A stretch of 64,000 nucleotides of DNA from Psychromonas ingrahamii 37 (lineage in GTDB: Bacteria > Pseudomonadota > Gammaproteobacteria > Enterobacterales > Psychromonadaceae). Where the stretch lies: positions 2,108,001-2,172,000 of the forward strand of contig NC_008709.1 of NCBI RefSeq assembly GCF_000015285.1, given 5' to 3'. Both the position numbers and the translations under genes were made by a program. The notes beneath the pieces are model-generated. The model worked only from the letters and a program-made list of their open reading frames with translations, was not told the DNA's origin and searched no databases. Positions 8,196 through 25,984 of this stretch are shown piece by piece (within the stretch, counting starts at the first letter, position 1; the number at the start of each line of letters is the position of its first letter).

Positions 8196-8644
8196 ACTCT
8201 TCTCCTAGGGACAGCAGGTTGTATTCAGTTATTACTTGTATAGCACTATAATTTATTTTTGTAACGTTACGCATCACACTTTAAGTTTTATCAGGTCTAA
8301 AATTAATTAAAACATAGCTTTAGAAGAATATAGCTTTAGCTTATGCTTCTAAAGCTATGTTTTAAAGTAATACCAAAAATAAAACAGATCATTGTTTCTG
8401 AGTGATCTACTGACGCCTTATTCATTGATTTGTAAAAGAATAGACCAGTATGCTAGAAAGTATAAACAAGATTGGTGATACTGGCTTATTTTTATTCAGA
8501 ATTAATGCTCGCCATCATTAATTTATTTTATTAGCGCTGTGTCGATGCATTCTTTCAATAAAATAAAAAACATCCTGTGGAGTGATGGTTTAATAAACAA
8601 AGCACTTTTTAATAACGTTTTATATTCAAGTAAGGGAGGGCACT
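8196..8644. other. intergenic region between the DUF2189 gene and fumC
   Basis: About 450 bp between divergent genes. Apart from the 20-bp inverted repeat at 8307-8365 (separate entry), I see only AT-rich sequence that should hold the two promoters. Confidence 0.5.
8307..8365. repeat. 20-bp perfect inverted repeat with 19-nt loop
   Basis: TTAAAACATAGCTTTAGAAG (8307-8326) is exactly repeated in inverse at 8346-8365; the loop also contains ATAGCTTTAGC, echoing the stem. It sits between divergent genes, so it is not an obvious terminator. A strong RNA hairpin, a cruciform or a small mobile palindrome are all possible. Confidence 0.8.
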
Positions 8645-10015
8645 ATGAAGAATTTTAGAATCGAAAGCGACAGTCTGGGGGATATTGATGTTCCTGTGGA
8701 CGCTATTTACGGACCACAAACCCAACGAGCAATAAACAACTTCCCGATCAGTGGACTAACCCTCCCCAAACGCTTTATTCAGGCATTGGCTTTACTCAAA
8801 AAATCAGCTGCACAGGCTAATTTAGAATTAGGTTTGCTCGACCAGAAGAGAGCCGAGGGTATTATCCACAGCGCAAACTTGATTGCCTCAGGCAAACATC
8901 TGGATCAGTTTCCTGTTGATGTATTTCAAACGGGCTCGGGTACCAGTACCAATATGAATATGAATGAGGTGATCGCGATGCTTGCGGGCAACACCGTCGA
9001 TGCCAATGATCACGTTAATATGGGACAGAGCAGCAACGATGTTATTCCAAGTACTATCCATATTAGTGCCGCTATTGCTCTCAGTAATCACCTTTTACCT
9101 GCCTTAAAGCACTTGCATAAAACCATATCAAACAAAGCCGTTAGTGTAAGTGAACATATTAAAACCGGGCGTACTCATCTGATGGATGCTATGCCGATTA
9201 GTATGGGTCAGGAACTGTCCGGTTGGGCGGGGCAAATTGAGCAAGGCATAGAAGGACTGGAATCGGTGCGCAATCGCTTACATCGTTTAGCCCTGGGCGG
9301 CACTGCAGTGGGAACCGGCATAAATACTCATTCGGACTTTGCGCAAACTTTTTGCGCTGCGTTAACGAAAGATACTGGGCTTGAATTTGAGCCGAGTGAT
9401 AATTTTTTTGCAAGTTTAGCCGGTCAAGATGTGGCTGTGGCATTGTCCGGGCAATTAAAAGTGGTTGCGGTGAGTTTAATGAAGATAGCCAATGATTTAC
9501 GCTGGATGAACTCGGGCCCGTTAAGCGGCATCGGGGAAATTGAACTTGAAGCATTGCAGCCGGGGTCATCTATTATGCCGGGTAAGGTAAATCCGGTTAT
9601 ACCTGAAGCGGTCGCGATGGTATCTGCACAGGTGATAGGCAATGATGCAACGATAACTATTGCGGGACAATCGGGTAATTTTGAGCTTAACGTCATGTTG
9701 CCTGTGATTGCCTATAATCTTTTGGAAAGTGTAGAAATACTGGCGAATTCAGCGAGCTTGTTGGCTGATAAAGCGATCGCAGATTTTATTATCAAAACTG
9801 ATAAGCTGCAACAGTCGTTGGCCCGCAATCCTATATTAGTGACCGCCCTTAACCCTATTATTGGTTATGCAAAAGCCGCTGAAATTGCCAAAAAGGCTTA
9901 TCATAGTGGCCGAAATATTATTGACGTGGCAGAAGAGGAAACGGATCTCAGTCATGAGCAATTAATTAAAATTTTGGATCCTATTGCGCTAACCACAGGC
10001 GGTATTCGTACATAA
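8645..10015 (+). CDS. fumC: fumarate hydratase, class II
   Basis: 456 residues, near the usual ~460 of FumC. It opens with the family N-terminus (IESDSLGDIDVPVDAIYGPQ), has the GSGTSTNMNMNEV loop, GQSSNDVIPS and the superfamily signature GSSIMPGKVNP at about residue 307. It catalyses reversible hydration of fumarate to L-malate in the cytosol, the iron-free oxygen-stable isoenzyme of the TCA cycle. Aspartase and argininosuccinate lyase share the signature, but the N-terminus and length fit fumarase. GGGAGG ahead of the ATG is a strong ribosome site. The malic enzyme at 14.7 kb is functionally adjacent but not in an operon with it. Confidence 0.92.
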   Translation: MKNFRIESDSLGDIDVPVDAIYGPQTQRAINNFPISGLTLPKRFIQALALLKKSAAQANLELGLLDQKRAEGIIHSANLIASGKHLDQFPVDVFQTGSGTSTNMNMNEVIAMLAGNTVDANDHVNMGQSSNDVIPSTIHISAAIALSNHLLPALKHLHKTISNKAVSVSEHIKTGRTHLMDAMPISMGQELSGWAGQIEQGIEGLESVRNRLHRLALGGTAVGTGINTHSDFAQTFCAALTKDTGLEFEPSDNFFASLAGQDVAVALSGQLKVVAVSLMKIANDLRWMNSGPLSGIGEIELEALQPGSSIMPGKVNPVIPEAVAMVSAQVIGNDATITIAGQSGNFELNVMLPVIAYNLLESVEILANSASLLADKAIADFIIKTDKLQQSLARNPILVTALNPIIGYAKAAEIAKKAYHSGRNIIDVAEEETDLSHEQLIKILDPIALTTGGIRT

Positions 10016-18547: not shown

Positions 18548-19954
18548 GTGAATGCTGAATTTAAGGGAAATTTCAAAGATGCCCCAACTGTTCTGATTGT
18601 TGACGATGATCCAGATATCTGTTCATTGCTGTCCTATTTGATGAAACGGGAAGGGTATGTTGTACAAATTGTTCATGATGGTATGGCTGCTCTCGACCTA
18701 ACACGTAACCGGGCACCCGATATTATACTAACTGATTTACGAATGCCCCGTATGGATGGCTTCGAGTTACTAAAGCAGGTAAAGCTGATCAAACAGGATC
18801 TACCCGTTGTGATACTCACCGCCTATGCTGGTATTAACGGGGCTGTCGAATCAATCAAGGCGGGGGCTGATGATTACTTACCCAAACCTTTTGATAACAG
18901 TAAAGTGGTGATGCTGGTTCACAGAATCCTTCTTCAGCATCACTGTTATAAAATTGATGAGCAGCCAATTGAGGGGGGTGTTCATGATATTGTTACTGTG
19001 ATGGGACCCAGTGCTATTATTCACACCTTGGCCGCTCAGGTTAAGCTGGTCGCGCAATCCAATTTCAATGTTATTATTCAAGGTGCCACTGGCGTCGGTA
19101 AAGAGGTGGTGGCCCAAGCTATCCATGCTCAGAGTCCATACGCTTCGGGTCCCTTTGTGCCGGTGGATTGTGGCGCGATCCCGGAAATGCTATTGGAGAG
19201 TGAACTTTTTGGCCACGAAAAGGGCGCTTTTACGGGTGCGTACCGAGCAAAGCAAGGCAAGTTCGAAGCTGCTCGAGGTGGCACCTTGTTTCTGGATGAA
19301 ATTGCCAATATGCCACTGACTTCTCAGGCTAAAATTCTGCGAGTTATGCAGGAAAAAATTATTTTTCCGGTAGGGTCAAACCAGCCTATTAAAATTGATG
19401 TGCGCCTTATAGTGGCTAGCCATGAAAATTTAGAAGCTAAGGTGGCTGATGGAACTTTTCGAGAAGACCTCTATTACCGATTCAATGAATTCACTATAAA
19501 AGTACCGCTGTTGTCTGAACGAAAGGAAGATCAGATTTATCTTGCTAAGCGATTTATGAACGAGACTAACCGAGAGCTTGGCAAAAACGTGACTCTTTCG
19601 ATAGGCGCGATTAACAAAATGCAGACCTATGAATGGCGAGGAAATGTGCGCGAATTGCGTGCGGTGATCCGCCGTGCGGTTCTCTTGGCGCAAACCGAAA
19701 TTAGGGAAGAGCATCTTGCCATTATAAATAAAAGCAGCAAGAGGAATGAATCTGGTCAGCTAAATGGTATCAATTTTACAACCGCATCTTCCCCACCTTT
19801 GAAGGAAATAGTTCGTGATTGCAGCGAGAGAGTAGAAAAGAAGACCTTAACGCAGGTACTGAGTCAAACCAATGGTAACAAGGCTGAAGCAGCACGTATC
19901 CTGAAAATAGATTATAAAACGCTACTTAACAAAGTAAAGTATTATGAATTATAA
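18548..19954 (+). CDS. NtrC-type sigma-54-dependent response regulator
   Basis: 468 residues with a receiver domain (VLIVDDDPD; phospho-acceptor D63 in [12 protein letters not shown]; lysine in YLPKPF), an AAA+ sigma-54 activation domain (Walker A GATGVGKE from residue 179, GAFTGA loop at 226-231, GGTLFLDEI Walker B, arginine-finger region [12 protein letters not shown]), and a C-terminal Fis-type helix-turn-helix ([20 protein letters not shown]). It starts at GTG 18548 with AAGGG upstream. It should bind upstream sites and drive sigma-54 RNA polymerase after phosphorylation. The cognate kinase follows, and a -24/-12 promoter precedes gvpA, so gvpA is its likely target. It resembles the gvr regulators of other enterobacterial-type gas-vesicle loci only in general design. 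Confidence 0.9.
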
Positions 19955-19971
19955 ACAGTAAAGATATAAAG

Positions 19972-20148
19972 ATGAAGAAAAAAAATAATTCAAAAAACAG
20001 TGAAATTAACGGCTTAAATGGAGCCTTGCATGAAGTGATGGAAGTCGATGTAGGTTACCTATTTTTAAGCGGCCCATGGCCCTCTATTACTTTTTTCATA
20101 AAGAGAAAACAACTATGGATACGCTACTGGGAGATATTTTATGACTGA
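19972..20148 (+). CDS. small ORF overlapping the start of the sensor kinase (58 aa, unknown)
   Basis: ATG at 19972, 17 bp after the activator stop; TGA at 20146-20148 overlaps the kinase ATG by eight bases (ATGACTGA). The product starts lysine-rich (MKKKNNSKNSEING), has a central hydrophobic VGYLFLSGPWPSITFF and ends basic and aromatic. No family is recognised and the ribosome site is weak. The position filling the only gap in a tight regulatory operon, and the stop/start overlap, argue for translational coupling, either as a real small protein or a leader frame. Confidence 0.4.
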   Translation: MKKKNNSKNSEINGLNGALHEVMEVDVGYLFLSGPWPSITFFIKRKQLWIRYWEIFYD

Positions 20149-21661
20149 TCATGATAATTTAAACCTCCATGCGACCAATGGATCCGTTTTGAAACAGTCT
20201 GTGTCGGAGAAAATGGGAGACAATCTACAATACCAGCAGCTCTACGATATGCTGCTTAATGCCACTCCTTCCTCCGTATTATTGATTGACAGCAATTTCC
20301 GTATTACCTCGGCTAATCGTAATTTCCTCACTCGAAGTCAGCGCACTCTTTCAGCTACAATAGGTTGCCGGCTTAGGGAAGTCTTCCCGATAGTTATTCT
20401 AGAACGAATGGATATCAAGCAACAGATCCAAGAAGTGTTCAATACTCACAAAGCTTCCGTAGGACAACGTATGACCTATCGGGCCCCCGGCGTGCCGTTT
20501 AAAACTTATTATTATCGTATTTTGCCTATAGAATCCAGCGAGCAGTGTGAACAAGTCATGTTGCTGATGGAAGATATTACCGATCAGATCCGCCTCAGTG
20601 AAGATATGCGTCGTGTGGAAAGTCACCTCGGTAGCATTGTGGAAAGCGCTAGCGACTTGATGCTGTCTTTAGATACTGAAGGGCGTATCTTAACTTGGAA
20701 CTCGGCGGCAGAAAAACTCTCAGGATTTACGTTTCTAAAGGTTCAAGGAAAGTTCTTTTTCGAGTTTTTCAAAGCCTCTGAGCATTTAGAAATCAAGACG
20801 TTTTTTATCAATATATGTATTAATGTTTGCTCCCTGAACGCCGAGTGGGAGTTGATCTCTAAGAAAGGTATTGAAATCTCCGTTGCCTGGATTTTCTCGC
20901 CAATGAAAGATGACGATGCCAAAACCGTAGGCATTGTTGCTGTCGGGCGGGATCTGACCGAACAACGCAAGTTAGAGGTCGAGTTGCGGCAGTCACAAAA
21001 ACTAGCCGCACTCGGGGTAATGGCTGGCGGTATCGCCCACGAAATTCGTAACCCCCTTGCAGTTTGTTCCTCGGCGGCGCAATTTCTGATGGAAGAGGGG
21101 CTTCCACTTGAATTCAGAACCGAATGTGCGAAGAAAATCCAAGTCAGTCTTGAGAAGGCTTCCTGCATCATTGAAAATCTGTTGCGCTTTTCCAGACCTT
21201 CCTGTGAGCAAAATATGGTGCCGATGGATCTGGATACTGTGCTATGCGAAACGATTATGTTAATCGCAAACCAAGCCAAGGTATATAAAATTGAAATAGT
21301 CTATCTACCTATTGGAAAATGCAGTTTGGTGTCTGGAATATTTACTCTGCTACAGCAAGTCTTTATGAATTTTTTCCTGAATGCGATTAATGCGATGCCC
21401 GAGGGTGGTGAGCTAGGCATTATCCTGGAACAGCAAGGCGATGAAGCGCTAGTTTGTATCAGGGACACGGGGACAGGGATCTTGGAAGGCGCACTGGATA
21501 ATATCTTCGATCCTTTTCATACTTCCTCCCCGGCAGGAAAAGGAGTTGGACTCGGACTCTCTCTCTGTTATTCGATTGTTAAACAACATAGGGGGAGTAT
21601 TAGCGTGGATAGCATGGTGGGTAAGGGAAGCACTTTCACAGTATTGCTACCAATATTATGA
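20141..21661 (+). CDS. NtrB-like sensor histidine kinase with two PAS domains
   Basis: 506 residues with no membrane segments, so cytosolic. PAS1 spans about 35-150 (NATPSSVLLIDSNFRITSAN ... EDITDQIRL) and PAS2 about 160-275 (IVESASDLMLSLDTEGRIL ... GRDLTEQRK). HisKA has the H-box GGIAHEIRNPLA with His300; the HATPase domain has FFLNAINAMPEGG (N box), IRDTGTGI and GKGVGLGLSLCYSIV. It should autophosphorylate and pass phosphate to the sigma-54 activator upstream and/or the receiver protein downstream, whose ATG overlaps its stop (ATGA at 21658). The PAS ligand is unknown; a soluble signal such as redox, light or metabolite fits flotation control. Confidence 0.9.
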   Translation: MTDHDNLNLHATNGSVLKQSVSEKMGDNLQYQQLYDMLLNATPSSVLLIDSNFRITSANRNFLTRSQRTLSATIGCRLREVFPIVILERMDIKQQIQEVFNTHKASVGQRMTYRAPGVPFKTYYYRILPIESSEQCEQVMLLMEDITDQIRLSEDMRRVESHLGSIVESASDLMLSLDTEGRILTWNSAAEKLSGFTFLKVQGKFFFEFFKASEHLEIKTFFINICINVCSLNAEWELISKKGIEISVAWIFSPMKDDDAKTVGIVAVGRDLTEQRKLEVELRQSQKLAALGVMAGGIAHEIRNPLAVCSSAAQFLMEEGLPLEFRTECAKKIQVSLEKASCIIENLLRFSRPSCEQNMVPMDLDTVLCETIMLIANQAKVYKIEIVYLPIGKCSLVSGIFTLLQQVFMNFFLNAINAMPEGGELGIILEQQGDEALVCIRDTGTGILEGALDNIFDPFHTSSPAGKGVGLGLSLCYSIVKQHRGSISVDSMVGKGSTFTVLLPIL

Positions 21662-22050
21662 AATCGTCATCACGGCTTACCATTGACTGCCTCATTGTAG
21701 ATGATGAGCCCGGCATCGCTTGGGTTATGGAACATATATTGCGGAGTCAGGGTTACACTGTAGTCAGTGTCCAAACTGGCGATGAGGCATTGAATGCAGT
21801 GAAAGAACAGGATTTTAGATTGATTTTTATGGATGCTAAATTACCCGATATCGAAGGTTTAGTGCTGGCGCGTAAGTTGCGAAGTATTAAACTAGAAATG
21901 CCGATTATTATGGTCTCCGGTTATTATTATTCTGACGATCCTGCCATTATTCAGGCGATTGAAAGCAATCTTATTTTAAAGTTCATTGCCAAGCCATTTA
22001 CTAATAGTCATATTATTGCCGCCTTAGAAGGTTTGCCAAATTTCAGATAA
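21658..22050 (+). CDS. single-domain response regulator (CheY-like receiver)
   Basis: 130 residues, one receiver domain: LIVDDEPGIAW (acidic pocket), phospho-acceptor D59 in FMDAKLPDIEG, VSGYYYSDDP and K in IAKPF. There is no output domain. It overlaps the kinase stop by ATGA, so the two are co-translated. It may be a phosphate sink, or a relay that adjusts the NtrC-like activator, or may act on another target by protein contact. Confidence 0.88.
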   Translation: MKSSSRLTIDCLIVDDEPGIAWVMEHILRSQGYTVVSVQTGDEALNAVKEQDFRLIFMDAKLPDIEGLVLARKLRSIKLEMPIIMVSGYYYSDDPAIIQAIESNLILKFIAKPFTNSHIIAALEGLPNFR

Positions 22051-22149
22051 AATAATACGACAGTTATACCCACCAATATACCCAGAAGAATGATTTTAGA
22101 TTCAAGTGATGATCTCATTTCGCATTTGAAGTAGGGTGGAAATTCCAGA

Positions 22150-22169
22150 GTATGGTGTCAACGCCATAC
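22150..22169. promoter_or_regulatory. candidate enhancer site for the NtrC-like activator
   Basis: GTATGGTGTCAACGCCATAC is a 20-bp dyad (GTATGG(T/C)GT...AC(G/A)CCATAC) with two mismatched pairs. It lies about 125 bp upstream of the -24 element, the usual distance for enhancers of sigma-54 activators, in the only long intergenic space between regulators and gvpA. Binding is inferred, not shown. Confidence 0.6.
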
Positions 22170-22275
22170 ATCCCCTCCCTAAACCCGTTGTTACTCATTC
22201 GTACATTTTTTATACTTTTGATAAATTCAGAATTAAAACATTAGCTTGGATTTTATTGTCGATGGTAATCACTGT

Positions 22276-22291
22276 TGGCATAGTTGATGCA
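22276..22291 (+). promoter_or_regulatory. sigma-54 (-24/-12) promoter of gvpA
   Basis: TGGCATAGTTGATGCA matches the sigma-54 consensus TGGCACrNNNNTTGCA at 10 of 12 specified positions, with GG and GC spaced exactly as required. Transcription would start near 22302, leaving a 155-nt leader before gvpA. The sigma-54 activator encoded 2.3-3.7 kb upstream in the same cluster supports it. Confidence 0.75.
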
Positions 22292-22457
22292 TCACAATAA
22301 TAGTTAATGCAAGAGTTAATGTATTAATGAGTAACGGCTACCGAAACAGTCGAAGCGGGTTAATAAAAAGTTTTAAAAATGTGTACGTGTATAGAGAGAA
22401 GGTCACATAATATTTGTGACTGGTTATTTAAAATCATCCAAAAAAAGGAGTATTAAA

Positions 22458-22676
22458 ATGGCTAATGTACAAAAATCAACCGATTCATCAGGCTTAGCAG
22501 AAGTGGTAGATCGTATTCTAGAGAAAGGAATTGTGATCGACGCATTCGTGAAAGTATCTTTAGTAGGTATTGAGCTACTATCAATAGAAGCGCGTGTTGT
22601 TATCGCTTCAGTTGAAACTTATCTGAAATATGCCGAAGCTATTGGTCTAACAGCGAGCGCTGCTACACCCGCATGA
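22458..22676 (+). CDS. gvpA: gas vesicle structural protein GvpA
   Basis: 72 residues. The core [21 protein letters not shown] and [23 protein letters not shown], followed by KYAEAIGLT, is the highly conserved GvpA sequence that forms the ribbed gas-permeable shell. ATG 22458 follows AAGGAG at 22445-22450; upstream in-frame codons to 22416 are leader. The C-terminal tail (TASAATPA) is short. It is the first gene behind the sigma-54 promoter and is followed by a hairpin, which would make it the most abundant transcript, as in other gvp operons. Confidence 0.95.
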
Positions 22677-22746
22677 TAGTAATATCGTGAGCTGCCTTTT
22701 TATCGATTAATCTTTTTTGAAAAGGCTTTATTTTAAGATTCATTTG

Positions 22747-22773
22747 GGGCTGAAGAATTCACTTCAGCCCTTT
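22747..22773 (+). terminator. hairpin after gvpA, probable partial terminator
   Basis: GGGCTGAAG/CTTCAGCCC stem with a six-base loop followed by TTTAT. The short T-run suggests incomplete termination, which would set a high gvpA to downstream gene ratio. A weaker GCCTTTT/AAAAGGC pair (22695-22732) precedes it. Confidence 0.6.
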
Positions 22774-22823
22774 ATGACTATTACGGCTATCATTGACGAG
22801 TCGTGAAAACCGGGAGATGCACG

Positions 22824-24176
22824 ATGAATTTTTTAGAGAAGAGAGATCGCCCCCAAAACGAGTACATAGGTAGATTAGAACCTGAGGTTGCCGCGCTACT
22901 CGGTGACTTTCATCAAATGCGCATGGCAACGGGCAACCACAGTGCAGCCGAGCGAGTAGAGCGGGTCAACACTAACGCTAAAGCAATAAAAAAAATGCTC
23001 AAAGAGTTCAATCAAAGACGAATTAATATCAATCAAAGACGAATCGAGACGGCCAGTCAGGATACACAGCAACGGTTGACTTTTTCGAGCAATATGACAC
23101 AAAAAGTCAGGGATTTGCTGGATCAGTTTTATACCTCGCAGCAGCAGATGGCGGAAATATCGGCTGCCAAACGAGCTGAGCTTATCGACACTAACGCCAA
23201 AGCGATAGAAGAAATGCTTAAAAGCTTCAATCAAAAACGGATTAATGTTAATCAAATACGAATCGAGACGGCCAGTCAGGATACACAGCAACGGTTGACT
23301 TTTGCGAGCAATATGACACAAAAAGTCAGAGATTTGCTGGATCAGTTTTATGCATCCCGGCAGCAGATGGCAGAAATATCGACTGCCAAACGAGCAGAGC
23401 TTGTCAGCGCTAACACGAAAGCGATAGAAGAGATGCTTAAAGAGTTCAATAAAACACGAATTAATATCAATCAAATACGAATTGAGATGGCCAGCCAGGA
23501 TACACAGCAACGGTTGACTTTTGCGAGCGATATGACACAAAAAGTCAGGGATTTGCTGGATCAGTTTTATACATCCCGGCAGCAGATGGCAGAAATATCG
23601 GCTGCCGAACGAGCAGAGCTTGTCAGTGCTAACACTAAAGCGATAAAAAAGATGCTCAAAGAGTTTAAGAAAACACTCATTAATGTCAATCAGACACGAA
23701 TTAAGACGGCCAGTCAGGATACACAGCAACGGTTGATTTTTGCTAACAATATGACACAAAAAGTCAGGGATTTGCTGGATCAGTTTTATACATCTCGGCA
23801 GCATATGGCAGAAATATCGGCTGCCGAACGAGCAGAGCTTGTCAGCGCTAATGCTAAAGCGATAGAAGAGATGCTAAAAGAGTTCAGGCAAACACTCATT
23901 AATAATCAGACCCGAATTGAGATAGCCAGTCAGGATACACAGGAACGGTTGATTTTAGCTGGCAATATGATGGAAGAAGTCGTTGCGCCAAAGATCAAAG
24001 CAGGACTGTTAAAGGCTGAGACGGTAACTTCAGAAACCACAATCGATGATCAAGTAAAAAAGCCAGTGGCTAATAATAATCAGTCAGAAGCTAAAACTAC
24101 CCTAAACAGCAATACTAAAAAGACTAGAAAGGCTAGAAAGAGTAGAAAATATAGTGCCAATGGAGACCATGAATAA
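22824..24176 (+). CDS. gvpC: long repetitive GvpC-like gas-vesicle protein
   Basis: 450 residues from ATG 22824 (GGGAG at 22812-22816; an in-frame GTG 21 bp upstream overlaps this box). Five tandem 73-residue units (219 bp) fill residues ~25-390. Each is a 33-residue half (V.DLLDQFY.SRQQMAE, then ISAAERAELVSANTKA) plus a 40-residue half (IEEMLKEF...RIN.NQ, then .RIE.ASQDTQQRLTFASNMTQK); both halves share the LL..F...R helix pattern. The first unit is divergent at its start and the last has lost one residue. The ~60-residue tail is basic (TKKTRKARKSRK). GvpC proteins are rod-like helical repeats that clamp the outside of GvpA ribs; 33 residues is the repeat length of cyanobacterial GvpC. Position after gvpA and before gvpN supports the call, though sequence identity to known GvpC is low. 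Confidence 0.8.
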   Translation: MNFLEKRDRPQNEYIGRLEPEVAALLGDFHQMRMATGNHSAAERVERVNTNAKAIKKMLKEFNQRRININQRRIETASQDTQQRLTFSSNMTQKVRDLLDQFYTSQQQMAEISAAKRAELIDTNAKAIEEMLKSFNQKRINVNQIRIETASQDTQQRLTFASNMTQKVRDLLDQFYASRQQMAEISTAKRAELVSANTKAIEEMLKEFNKTRININQIRIEMASQDTQQRLTFASDMTQKVRDLLDQFYTSRQQMAEISAAERAELVSANTKAIKKMLKEFKKTLINVNQTRIKTASQDTQQRLIFANNMTQKVRDLLDQFYTSRQHMAEISAAERAELVSANAKAIEEMLKEFRQTLINNQTRIEIASQDTQERLILAGNMMEEVVAPKIKAGLLKAETVTSETTIDDQVKKPVANNNQSEAKTTLNSNTKKTRKARKSRKYSANGDHE

Positions 24177-24245
24177 AGAGTGTTTATCTAGGCAGAGTAA
24201 TGCCTGCTTATAGATTATAAAAATAATAATAGCGAGTATAAAGAT

Positions 24246-25253
24246 ATGAGCATCAACAATCTGAATATATCGACCATTAAAATTGAGCAGCCTGAGAATG
24301 ATAATATTTATCCTGAGGCTAGTGCAGAGTTCGTTCAAACACCTTATATCCAAGAGGTAACGGAACGCGCTCTGCTCTACTTAGATGCGGGGTATCCCGT
24401 CCATTTTGCTGGTCCAGCAGGGACGGGAAAGACCACTCTGGCATTCCATATCGCGGCACTGCGGAAACGGCCGGTTACCTTGATTCATGGCAATCATGAA
24501 TTTGGCAGTTCTGACTTAATCGGTAAGGAGTCTGGTTATCGCAGACATCGATTGGTGGATAATTATGTCCACTCGGTGATGAAAGAGGAGGAAGAATTGA
24601 AGAGCCTATGGGTCGATAACCGTCTGACTACTTGTTGTCGTAACGGTGATACCCTAGTCTATGATGAATTTAACCGTTCGACACCGGAAGCTAATAACGT
24701 ACTGCTGAGTATTCTGGAAGAGGGGATATTGAACCTCCCGAGCTTGCGTAGTATGGGGGATGGCTATCTCGAAGTTCATCCGAGTTTTCGGGCGATTTTC
24801 ACCTCAAATCCGCAAGAGTACGCAGGCACTCATGCCACTCAGGATGCGCTAGTTGATCGCATGATCACTATTATGCTGAATTACCCCGATAGAGACACTG
24901 AAGTGCGCGTTGCTGTGGCAAAATCGGGTATTAGCAATGAAGAGGCCGGATTTATCGTCGATATTGTTAATGAATTTCGTGAGTTAAGTAATCATAAATC
25001 ATTATCGAGTGGCCAGAAATCGATGCCGACGGTTCGTGCATCGATTGCCATTTCTCGCGTTTTGATCCAGAAGGGGGAACATGCCTTTCGCGACAATGTG
25101 TTCTTTCATCGTGTCTGCCATGATGTTCTGTGCATGTATATCCAGAAAATATCTCCTTCTAACCGATCTTTTTTGGATAAACAGCTGGAAGTGCTAATTG
25201 GTAAATTCTGTCCTGCCGCTAAGAGCGCGTTAGTGCCTAAAGTTGTAAAATAA
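24246..25253 (+). CDS. gvpN: gas vesicle protein GvpN, MoxR/CbbQ-like AAA+ ATPase
   Basis: 335 residues. Family hallmarks: FVQTPYIQEVTERALLYLDA at the start of the domain, Walker A GPAGTGKTT (from residue 56), IHGNHEFGSSDLIG, Walker B LVYDEFNRS (137-145), LLSILEEGILNLPS and FTSNPQEYAGTHATQDALVDR. GvpN is needed for full-size vesicles and is thought to remodel or load the shell proteins. It lies 69 bp after the GvpC-like gene, in the conserved A-C-N order. The ribosome site is weak. Confidence 0.93.
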   Translation: MSINNLNISTIKIEQPENDNIYPEASAEFVQTPYIQEVTERALLYLDAGYPVHFAGPAGTGKTTLAFHIAALRKRPVTLIHGNHEFGSSDLIGKESGYRRHRLVDNYVHSVMKEEEELKSLWVDNRLTTCCRNGDTLVYDEFNRSTPEANNVLLSILEEGILNLPSLRSMGDGYLEVHPSFRAIFTSNPQEYAGTHATQDALVDRMITIMLNYPDRDTEVRVAVAKSGISNEEAGFIVDIVNEFRELSNHKSLSSGQKSMPTVRASIAISRVLIQKGEHAFRDNVFFHRVCHDVLCMYIQKISPSNRSFLDKQLEVLIGKFCPAAKSALVPKVVK

Positions 25254-25277
25254 ACACAATAAAAAAGGTGATGTACC

Positions 25278-25598
25278 ATGATTTTTTCGAAGAAAAAAAA
25301 TGCTCTTAGGGGGCTTGCCGATATCCGTACTCTAAGTGGATGTGGTACATCTGGGCAAGAAGCTTATCAGATGTACCTAAAGCGCGGGGTATTGGAGATG
25401 GAAAAACTCCGACGCCAAAAAGAAAAAAATAGTGCGCTTGAACGAGTAAGAAATATTAATTACCGTTTGATGGCTATTGATGCTGACATCGATTTTCTGT
25501 GCCAGAGCCTGAAAGTGATAGAAGAGCGTACAAATAAGGAGAACTCAATTTCCAATGAGTCAGTTACTTATAAGAAAGGATTTAAACTCCGTTATTAA
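25278..25598 (+). CDS. GvpV-like small accessory gas-vesicle protein
   Basis: 106 residues, 24 bp after gvpN. A basic N-terminus and the DIRTLSG element lead into a helical block EAYQMYLKRGVLEMEKLRRQ with heptad-like spacing and a second helix (YRLMAIDADIDFLCQSLKVIEE). The order 'RTLSG - AY..Y.K...LEMEK.R' and position after gvpN fit the small GvpV proteins of Serratia-type clusters. The match is by pattern and context only; it could be an unrelated coiled-coil protein. Confidence 0.6.
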   Translation: MIFSKKKNALRGLADIRTLSGCGTSGQEAYQMYLKRGVLEMEKLRRQKEKNSALERVRNINYRLMAIDADIDFLCQSLKVIEERTNKENSISNESVTYKKGFKLRY

Positions 25599-25726
25599 AG
25601 TAAACTTCATGTTTTTTAAGCAATTTAAGATTTCTGTCTTACACTCTATTCACTGCATATTTATAACGTATTTCTGACTGAGTTGTCGACGGGATTAGAT
25701 AATGCGTTTTGAAAAGGGAGACTAAA

Positions 25727-25984
25727 ATGACAATTAAAATTAACTGCATATCCTGCGGACATCAATTTGATCTAAGCGATTCCTACCAATATTATGAGGG
25801 GCCTGTTAAGTGCTGGGTTTGTGGTGAACTCCTTGATATAAAACTTGAGGACGGGCAGATAAAGCGTGTTCGTTCATTAAAGTTGAAAGAAATAACTGAA
25901 AAACATGAAATCACCATCAAAAGCAAAAATAAAGGCCAAGTGCAGTTGAAGGAACTAACAGAAAAACATGAAATCACTGAATAA
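25727..25984 (+). CDS. small zinc-ribbon protein at the end of the gas-vesicle operon
   Basis: 85 residues from ATG 25727, with AAGGGAG just upstream (an in-frame TTG six codons earlier lies before that box). Two knuckles, CISCGHQF and CWVCGELLD, 24 residues apart, form a typical zinc ribbon. The charged C-terminal part holds a tandem copy LKEITEKHEIT / LKELTEKHEIT separated by a lysine-rich linker. No family is recognised. Same strand, 128 bp after the GvpV-like gene, so possibly an accessory or assembly factor, but a membership in the operon is not proven. Confidence 0.6.
   Translation: MTIKINCISCGHQFDLSDSYQYYEGPVKCWVCGELLDIKLEDGQIKRVRSLKLKEITEKHEITIKSKNKGQVQLKELTEKHEITE

Follow-up and report, generated by a model that had tools for sequence, protein, structure and literature searches.

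The gas-vesicle locus at positions 18548–25598 of a 64,000-nucleotide stretch of the Psychromonas ingrahamii 37 genome (NC_008709.1, positions 2,108,001 to 2,172,000; the whole of this stretch is called the window below) is a truncated segmental duplicate of a complete gas-vesicle cluster in the same genome, and it has kept the regulatory genes gvrA-gvrB-gvrC along with gvpA, gvpC, gvpN and gvpV. Between the regulators and gvpA stand a -24/-12 promoter of the sigma-54 type and a palindromic candidate site for GvrA, the GvrA-box. We consider it probable that in this duplicate a signal passes from GvrB to GvrA, and through the box and sigma-54 polymerase to gvpA, with GvpF, GvpG, GvpK and GvpJ supplied by the other cluster. 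The original prediction, made from the sequence alone, had gvpA, a gvpC-position gene and gvpN preceded by genes for an activator, a kinase with two PAS domains and a receiver standing alone, and Pfam and NCBIfam models bear this out except for the gvpC-position gene, which is named by position. The locus has the following features.

18548–19954, + strand: gvrA, NtrC-family sigma-54 activator with receiver (PF00072), AAA+ (PF00158) and Fis-type helix-turn-helix (PF02954) domains (Pfam)
19955–20140, + strand: deletion scar between gvrA and gvrB, the gvpH start joined to the gvpF3 3' end (blastn against the complete cluster; sequences side by side)
20141–21661, + strand: gvrB, soluble two-PAS sensor histidine kinase (Pfam PAS_4, PAS_9, HisKA, HATPase_c)
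21658–22050, + strand: gvrC, lone receiver (PF00072 the sole Pfam family above cut-off; phospho-aspartate signature)
22132–22149, + strand: second, weaker candidate GvrA-box TAGGGTGGAAATTCCAGA, 19 bp upstream of the first (leave-one-out matrix score 7.0)
22150–22169, + strand: candidate GvrA-box dyad, GTATGG-N8-CCATAC, core 22151–22168, centre at about -142 from the predicted start (genome scan; cross-phylum consensus)
22276–22291, + strand: predicted -24/-12 promoter TGGCATAGTTGATGCA, predicted start near 22302 (pattern scan; paralogous copy; related loci)
22458–22676, + strand: gvpA, gas-vesicle shell protein (PF00741; NCBIfam NF006874, 130.9 bits, cut-off 100)
22803–24176, + strand: gvpC-position repeat protein (tandem repeat; position and paralogy)
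24246–25253, + strand: gvpN, AAA+ ATPase (TIGR02640, 337 bits, cut-off 266.8)
25278–25598, + strand: gvpV homologue, named from its position behind gvpN (position, paralogy)

The complete cluster (L005; G000:C1:1554001-1574000) lies about 570 kb from the window locus, start to start. By blastn, positions 18548–25598 of the window are a copy of positions 793–13245 of L005 minus about 4.18 kb, from gvpH to gvpF3, and what remains is homologous gene for gene. L005 holds gvpH, a gene for a CDC48-type ATPase, three gvpF genes, gvpG, gvpK and two minor gvpA-family genes. All three GvpF/L matches of the genome, its one GvpK match and its two minor GvpA-family matches fall in L005 and none in the window locus; gvpG is present in L005 and was not found in the window locus by tblastn, no genome-wide search for gvpG having been made. 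The window locus is thus not a self-sufficient gas-vesicle cluster with respect to gvpF/L, gvpG, gvpK and minor gvpA, and because GvpF/L, GvpK and the minor GvpA proteins are encoded only in L005, the window set is not expected to form vesicles by itself. A complete circuit of kinase, activator and sigma-54 promoter had been predicted here; its regulatory half is well supported by homology, whereas the gas-vesicle gene set is the incomplete one of a truncated duplicate. Passages of the genome paper assign the gas-vesicle genes to two clusters, genes 1248-1262 and 1748-1750 (PMC2405808).

The two copies have not diverged evenly. Synonymous divergence (dS) between the window and L005 is 0.28–0.35 for gvrA, gvrB and gvrC, 0.43 for gvpV and 0.71–0.85 for gvpA, gvpC and gvpN, and the pooled synonymous difference is 0.261 for the regulators against 0.503 (chi-square p ~5e-19). 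At the protein level, the two GvrA paralogues are 93.4% identical. Because the dS of the regulators is about half or less that of gvpA, gvpC and gvpN, gvrA, gvrB and gvrC may have been homogenised by gene conversion; this is a reading of the uneven dS, which may instead reflect a separate, later duplication. Between gvrC and the box, L005 carries about 1.2 kb of mostly non-coding DNA (8500–9790), with box and promoter intact. One of the four open pieces in it has a weak match to an IS66 transposase (17.8 bits, below the cut-off of 23.1).

The -24/-12 element was found where it had been predicted, as TGGCATAGTTGATGCA at 22276–22291, and is the sole match to TGGCAYN5WTGCA in the 64-kb window, where 0.34 would be expected. 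On its own this match is weak, since 28 of 100 shuffles contain at least one. The paralogous gvpA promoter in L005 carries the same element with one change, TGGCATGGTTGATGCA. For a wider comparison we used related loci, the 80 most GvpN-like of at least 538 confirmed stretches obtained with a six-sequence alignment; 65 of the 80 were evaluable (11 had no gvpA by our thresholds and 4 had less than 200 bp upstream). A sigma-54-like site (p<=0.05 against shuffles) stands upstream of gvpA in 54 of these 65, and in all 19 upstream regions of a further set from one gammaproteobacterial order (30 loci, less 5 of insufficient length and 6 that the first set had covered). The matrix behind these counts, with weights set from general knowledge, has false positives, since gvpA promoters without a detected GvrA also score (Nostoc, p 0.01; L023/L139, p 0.04 and 0.05). 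A single sigma-54 DNA-binding-domain match was found in the genome, against the four rpoN copies mentioned in a part of the genome paper (PMC2405808). Sites resembling those of IHF (one mismatch) between the box and the promoter were dropped as weak, and the scans for sigma-70-like promoters (18 against 10.5 expected) and terminator-like elements (5 against 3.7 expected) were left unused.

The 20-bp dyad predicted at 22150–22169 is likewise present, as GTATGGTGTCAACGCCATAC, with 8 of 10 base pairs formed. Its arms, GTATGG-N8-CCATAC, mark both gvpA promoters and no other place in the 4.56-Mb genome, and the reversed control pattern does not occur at all. This dyad is explained by a wider family of sites. 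A palindrome, TATGGAA-N4-TTCCATA, recurs upstream of related gvpA genes in an unseeded inverted-repeat listing, which took in only upstream regions scoring 9.9 or more for sigma-54. The window dyad shares its frame, TATGG-N8-CCATA, matching the outer arms at 10/10 positions, with the inner AA/TT changed (core 10/14), and L005 matches at 13/14; since L005 and L007 were themselves part of the listing, their agreement with the consensus is no independent evidence. At least 12 of the 14 fixed positions are matched in 41 of 72 upstream regions (40 of the 65 loci and L005; L102 was left out of this count), compared with 0.2 in shuffles. We rejected the idea that the box simply reflects upstream regions similar enough to align, since it is still found in 33 of 57 once similar regions are collapsed. 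Of the 49 hits at 12/14 or better in 1.41 Mb, 44 are no more than 500 bp upstream of a gvpA; when the 80 loci were shuffled once, there were 2 hits. By their record labels, many of which are unverified labels of metagenome-assembled genomes, the box-bearing loci fall under nine phylum-level names: Pseudomonadota, Acidobacteria, deltaproteobacterial groups, Nitrospinia, Hydrogenedentes, Planctomycetia, Sumerlaeota, Verrucomicrobia and Calditrichaeota.

The box also keeps a regular position relative to the promoter. The box centre lies 118 bp from the GG of the -24 element in the window and 129 bp from it in L005, a difference of one helical turn. Over 44 sites these distances recur every 11.0 bp (R 0.54, p 0.0005; L056 was left out for its weak sigma-54 score), and the window box is in helical phase with the other loci. 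The phasing is weaker when each distinct distance is counted once (n=29, p=0.034; under 200 bp, n=17, p=0.02); with one site per upstream cluster the period is 11.1 (n=34, p=0.003), or 11.3 under 200 bp (n=22, p=0.001). At 16 of 43 sites a second, weaker box (matrix score above 2) stands 19–22 bp upstream of the first, at exactly -20 in 10 of the 43 (mode -20, z 6.0), and the second box of L005 has the same offset as that at 22132–22149 in the window. Because of the helical phase and the tandem copies, the layout appears to be that of an enhancer working by looping. The recognition helix of the putative binder is nearly invariant: 46 of 50 GvrA reading frames have DYKT there, 2 have DYKS and 1 has DFKT, and the remaining one (L027) ends before the helix, with a separate small helix-turn-helix gene annotated next door. 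Based upon these sequence comparisons, we propose that the conserved palindrome is the GvrA enhancer and that GvrA is its probable binder; the window dyad looks like a somewhat worn member of this conserved, helically phased site family. We found no GvrA binding site described in the literature searched, which left out most subscription papers; the one paper that brings the right half of the palindrome together with gas vesicles appears to concern a haloarchaeal enzyme, and the RbsR site predicted upstream of gvrA in an available portion of one study is a different sequence from the box (PMC5601083).

A full match to the palindrome stands before an isolated gvpA. On plasmid pTs485 of Candidatus Thiodictyon syntrophicum (L141, 12001–12219), an orphan gvpA has a 14/14 box 118 bp from its sigma-54 site, and no other gas-vesicle gene is annotated within some 12 kb to each side, in 24 kb for which the annotation is incomplete. 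The strain is reported to have homologues of both GvrA and GvrC (PMC5944118). Diverged repeats of TAGGG/TAGGT...CCCTA or CCATA form stand about 183–224 bp upstream of the -24 element in L087, L088, L108, L112, L114 and L120; these may be a variant form of the box that pairs with a variant GvrA.

The design of the switch itself is already known, and the conserved palindrome is the new result. The window locus has orthologues of GvrA, GvrB and GvrC and a -24/-12 site upstream of gvpA, the marks of a GvrABC regulon, and shares them with Serratia sp. ATCC 39006 (recorded as Prodigiosinella confusarubida LacA, loci L088 and L150). Identities between the Serratia and window proteins are 45% for GvrA, 57–58% for GvrB and 43% for GvrC. 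In the sections of the Serratia work available, gvpA1 expression drops without GvrA, GvrB or GvrC, a sigma-54 site lies upstream of the mapped gvpA1 start, the NtrC-type GvrA controls gvpA1, and the inverted operon order in P. ingrahamii is already remarked upon (PMC4982088). Extracts of a later paper propose that GvrA opens the sigma-54 complex and cite a thesis in which an rpoN mutant makes no vesicles (PMC11778176). The two systems differ in arrangement: in Serratia the gvr operon follows downstream of the gvpA1 operon and includes gvpH, gvpZ, gvpF2 and gvpF3, with the relatives of gvrB and gvrC behind gvpF2 and gvpF3, whereas that of the window lies directly upstream of gvpA, has lost gvpH, gvpZ, gvpF2 and gvpF3, and is a second gvr set alongside that of L005. 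The Serratia box is also diverged.

In the classical NtrB/NtrC system, a kinase phosphorylates an activator, which binds tandem palindromic sites and loops to sigma-54 polymerase. The window circuit would work alike, and differs in having an extra lone receiver and a different palindrome, and in a GvrA that scores below NtrC proper (403 bits against the NtrC equivalog TIGR01818, cut-off 558.6). GvrB, as a cytosolic PAS kinase, would phosphorylate GvrA and perhaps GvrC too. GvrA would then bind one or two tandem palindromic boxes at 22132–22168, about 118 bp upstream of -24, and loop to sigma-54 polymerase at 22276–22291, with transcription predicted to start near 22302. The product would be a second set of GvpA, GvpC, GvpN and GvpV, presumably assembled with GvpF, GvpG, GvpK and GvpJ from the other cluster. 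We infer that both gvpA promoters are cross-activated by the two sets of regulators.

Several observations weigh against this account of the box, in the window or in general. At 10/14 the window box falls below the 12/14 threshold for a GvrA-box, shuffles of the same 450 bp reach its score at p=0.31, and by the matrix it is outscored by position 1584 of the window (9.6 against 7.9). Across the own genome, the consensus with up to two mismatches does not discriminate, with 16 places against 31 for the reversed control. A box of 12/14 or better is missing from 25 of the 65 loci; the score is 11/14 in Serratia 39006, the host of the Serratia genetics, and in the nearest relative, Shewanella salipaludis, 9/14 in Methylobacter, and 8 and 10 on the Methylocella and Methylosinus plasmids. 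In the further set, no more than 6 of the 19 upstream regions have the box (0.09 expected), and 12 of the 13 without it come from one family (f193), in which some promoters show diverged repeats. Moreover, the 80 loci are not a random sample, and the count of 41/72 is not independent because the consensus came from the very loci that were counted.

The palindrome could be real and conserved and yet be bound by another protein, such as a repressor, a nucleoid protein or an oxygen regulator, with GvrA acting elsewhere. SmaR also acts at Serratia gvpA1, according to the accessible text (PMC4982088), and the box is weak in the very organism where the effect of GvrA was shown genetically. We think this unlikely, as GvrA alone of the three regulators has a DNA-binding domain, and the sigma-54 phasing, the tandem copies and the near-invariant helix-turn-helix are what one would expect of an activator that binds an enhancer. 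The box is also absent, with matches at 8–9 of 14, from seven gvpA promoters for which GvrA was not detected, namely those of L021, L022, L023 (the same place as L139), L140, L142, L026 and L028, a control limited by the short stretches covered of L140 (3.2 kb) and L142 (7 kb, a cyanobacterium) and by a weak GvrA-like hit in L023 (32%, to the receiver part). Alternatively, the window cluster may be a decaying duplicate in which the regulators and gvpA are functionless remnants, as the loss of the 4.18 kb, the degenerate box and the absent assembly genes would suggest. Yet the seven retained genes are all open, with pairwise dN/dS (nonsynonymous over synonymous divergence) of 0.03–0.23, and 0.47 for gvpC. 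The promoter and the dyad arms have been kept in an intergenic region that is otherwise 80.6% identical to that of L005 over 310 aligned bases, with many gaps, and the species has been seen to form two types of gas vesicle, as an excerpt of the genome paper states (PMC2405808). We therefore hold decay to be improbable.

Least credible of all, and already refuted where novelty is concerned, is the view that this is a distinct and previously unseen NtrB/NtrC/receiver wiring of gas vesicles, as the original prediction had supposed. The trio does stand directly upstream of gvpA. However, an orthologous trio has been tested genetically in Serratia 39006, 37 of the 65 loci have gvrC no more than 700 bp upstream of gvpA, and gvrB-gvrC-gvpA are contiguous in 31 of 65, even though many contigs are truncated; the same order is found on alphaproteobacterial plasmids of Methylosinus and Methylocella. 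The arrangement is thus not distinct. Among closer relatives, a search for GvrA at E<=1e-100 in 60 genomes (the own genome and 59 relatives, 23 of the same genus) returned the own genome alone. GvpN was positive in 4 of 369 and 2 of 398 sampled genomes, the own genome counted each time, and a GvpN single-protein scan of genome contigs found no relative.

With the truncated, still regulated duplicate as the preferred reading, a bolder extension can be stated, which we regard as possible and rather doubtful. One enhancer code, kept with GvrA across many phyla, would be used twice in this genome, where two near-identical GvrABC sets would be kept alike by gene conversion as the shell proteins drift apart, each set acting on both gvpA promoters, and one phospho-signal would switch on two vesicle types in order, the window (box 10/14, against 13/14 in L005) being the late, high-threshold module. 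The two gvpA promoters in one genome offer a natural comparison. With a shared palindrome in fixed helical phase, GvrA control of any gvpA, orphans included, could be tested from sequence; the candidate box offers a defined site to footprint and might serve as a control element in acoustic reporter genes.

The catalytic signatures of the regulators are present in the window. GAFTGA, Walker A and the phospho-acceptor aspartate are all present in GvrA, and the H, N and G boxes of the GvrB kinase are all recognisable. A cytosolic signal, as had been predicted for the kinase, fits GvrB because no segment of the protein is strongly hydrophobic (the highest Kyte-Doolittle mean over 19 residues is 1.71, in the C-terminal part). 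For gvpA, the start is placed at ATG 22458, which stands behind AAGGAG, and not at GTG 22416. The names gvpC and gvpV follow what we take to be the Serratia gene order, and neither gene (22803–24176 and 25278–25598) matches a gas-vesicle family model, gvpC included, in Pfam or NCBIfam. The gvpC-position gene contains 4.7 copies of a 219-bp (73-residue) unit at 22953–23970, and its product is 48.6% identical to the L005 paralogue across 401 aligned residues; the GvpV homologue is 83.5% identical to its paralogue, and homologues stand behind gvpN in many related loci. One further small open reading frame follows.

25709–25984, + strand: small Cys-x2-Cys zinc-ribbon-like open reading frame (translations; every zinc-ribbon Pfam score below cut-off)

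It has a counterpart behind gvpV in the complete cluster, and the window copy ends in short repeats. Behind the complete cluster there are also three genes with TerD domains (L005, 17949–19941).

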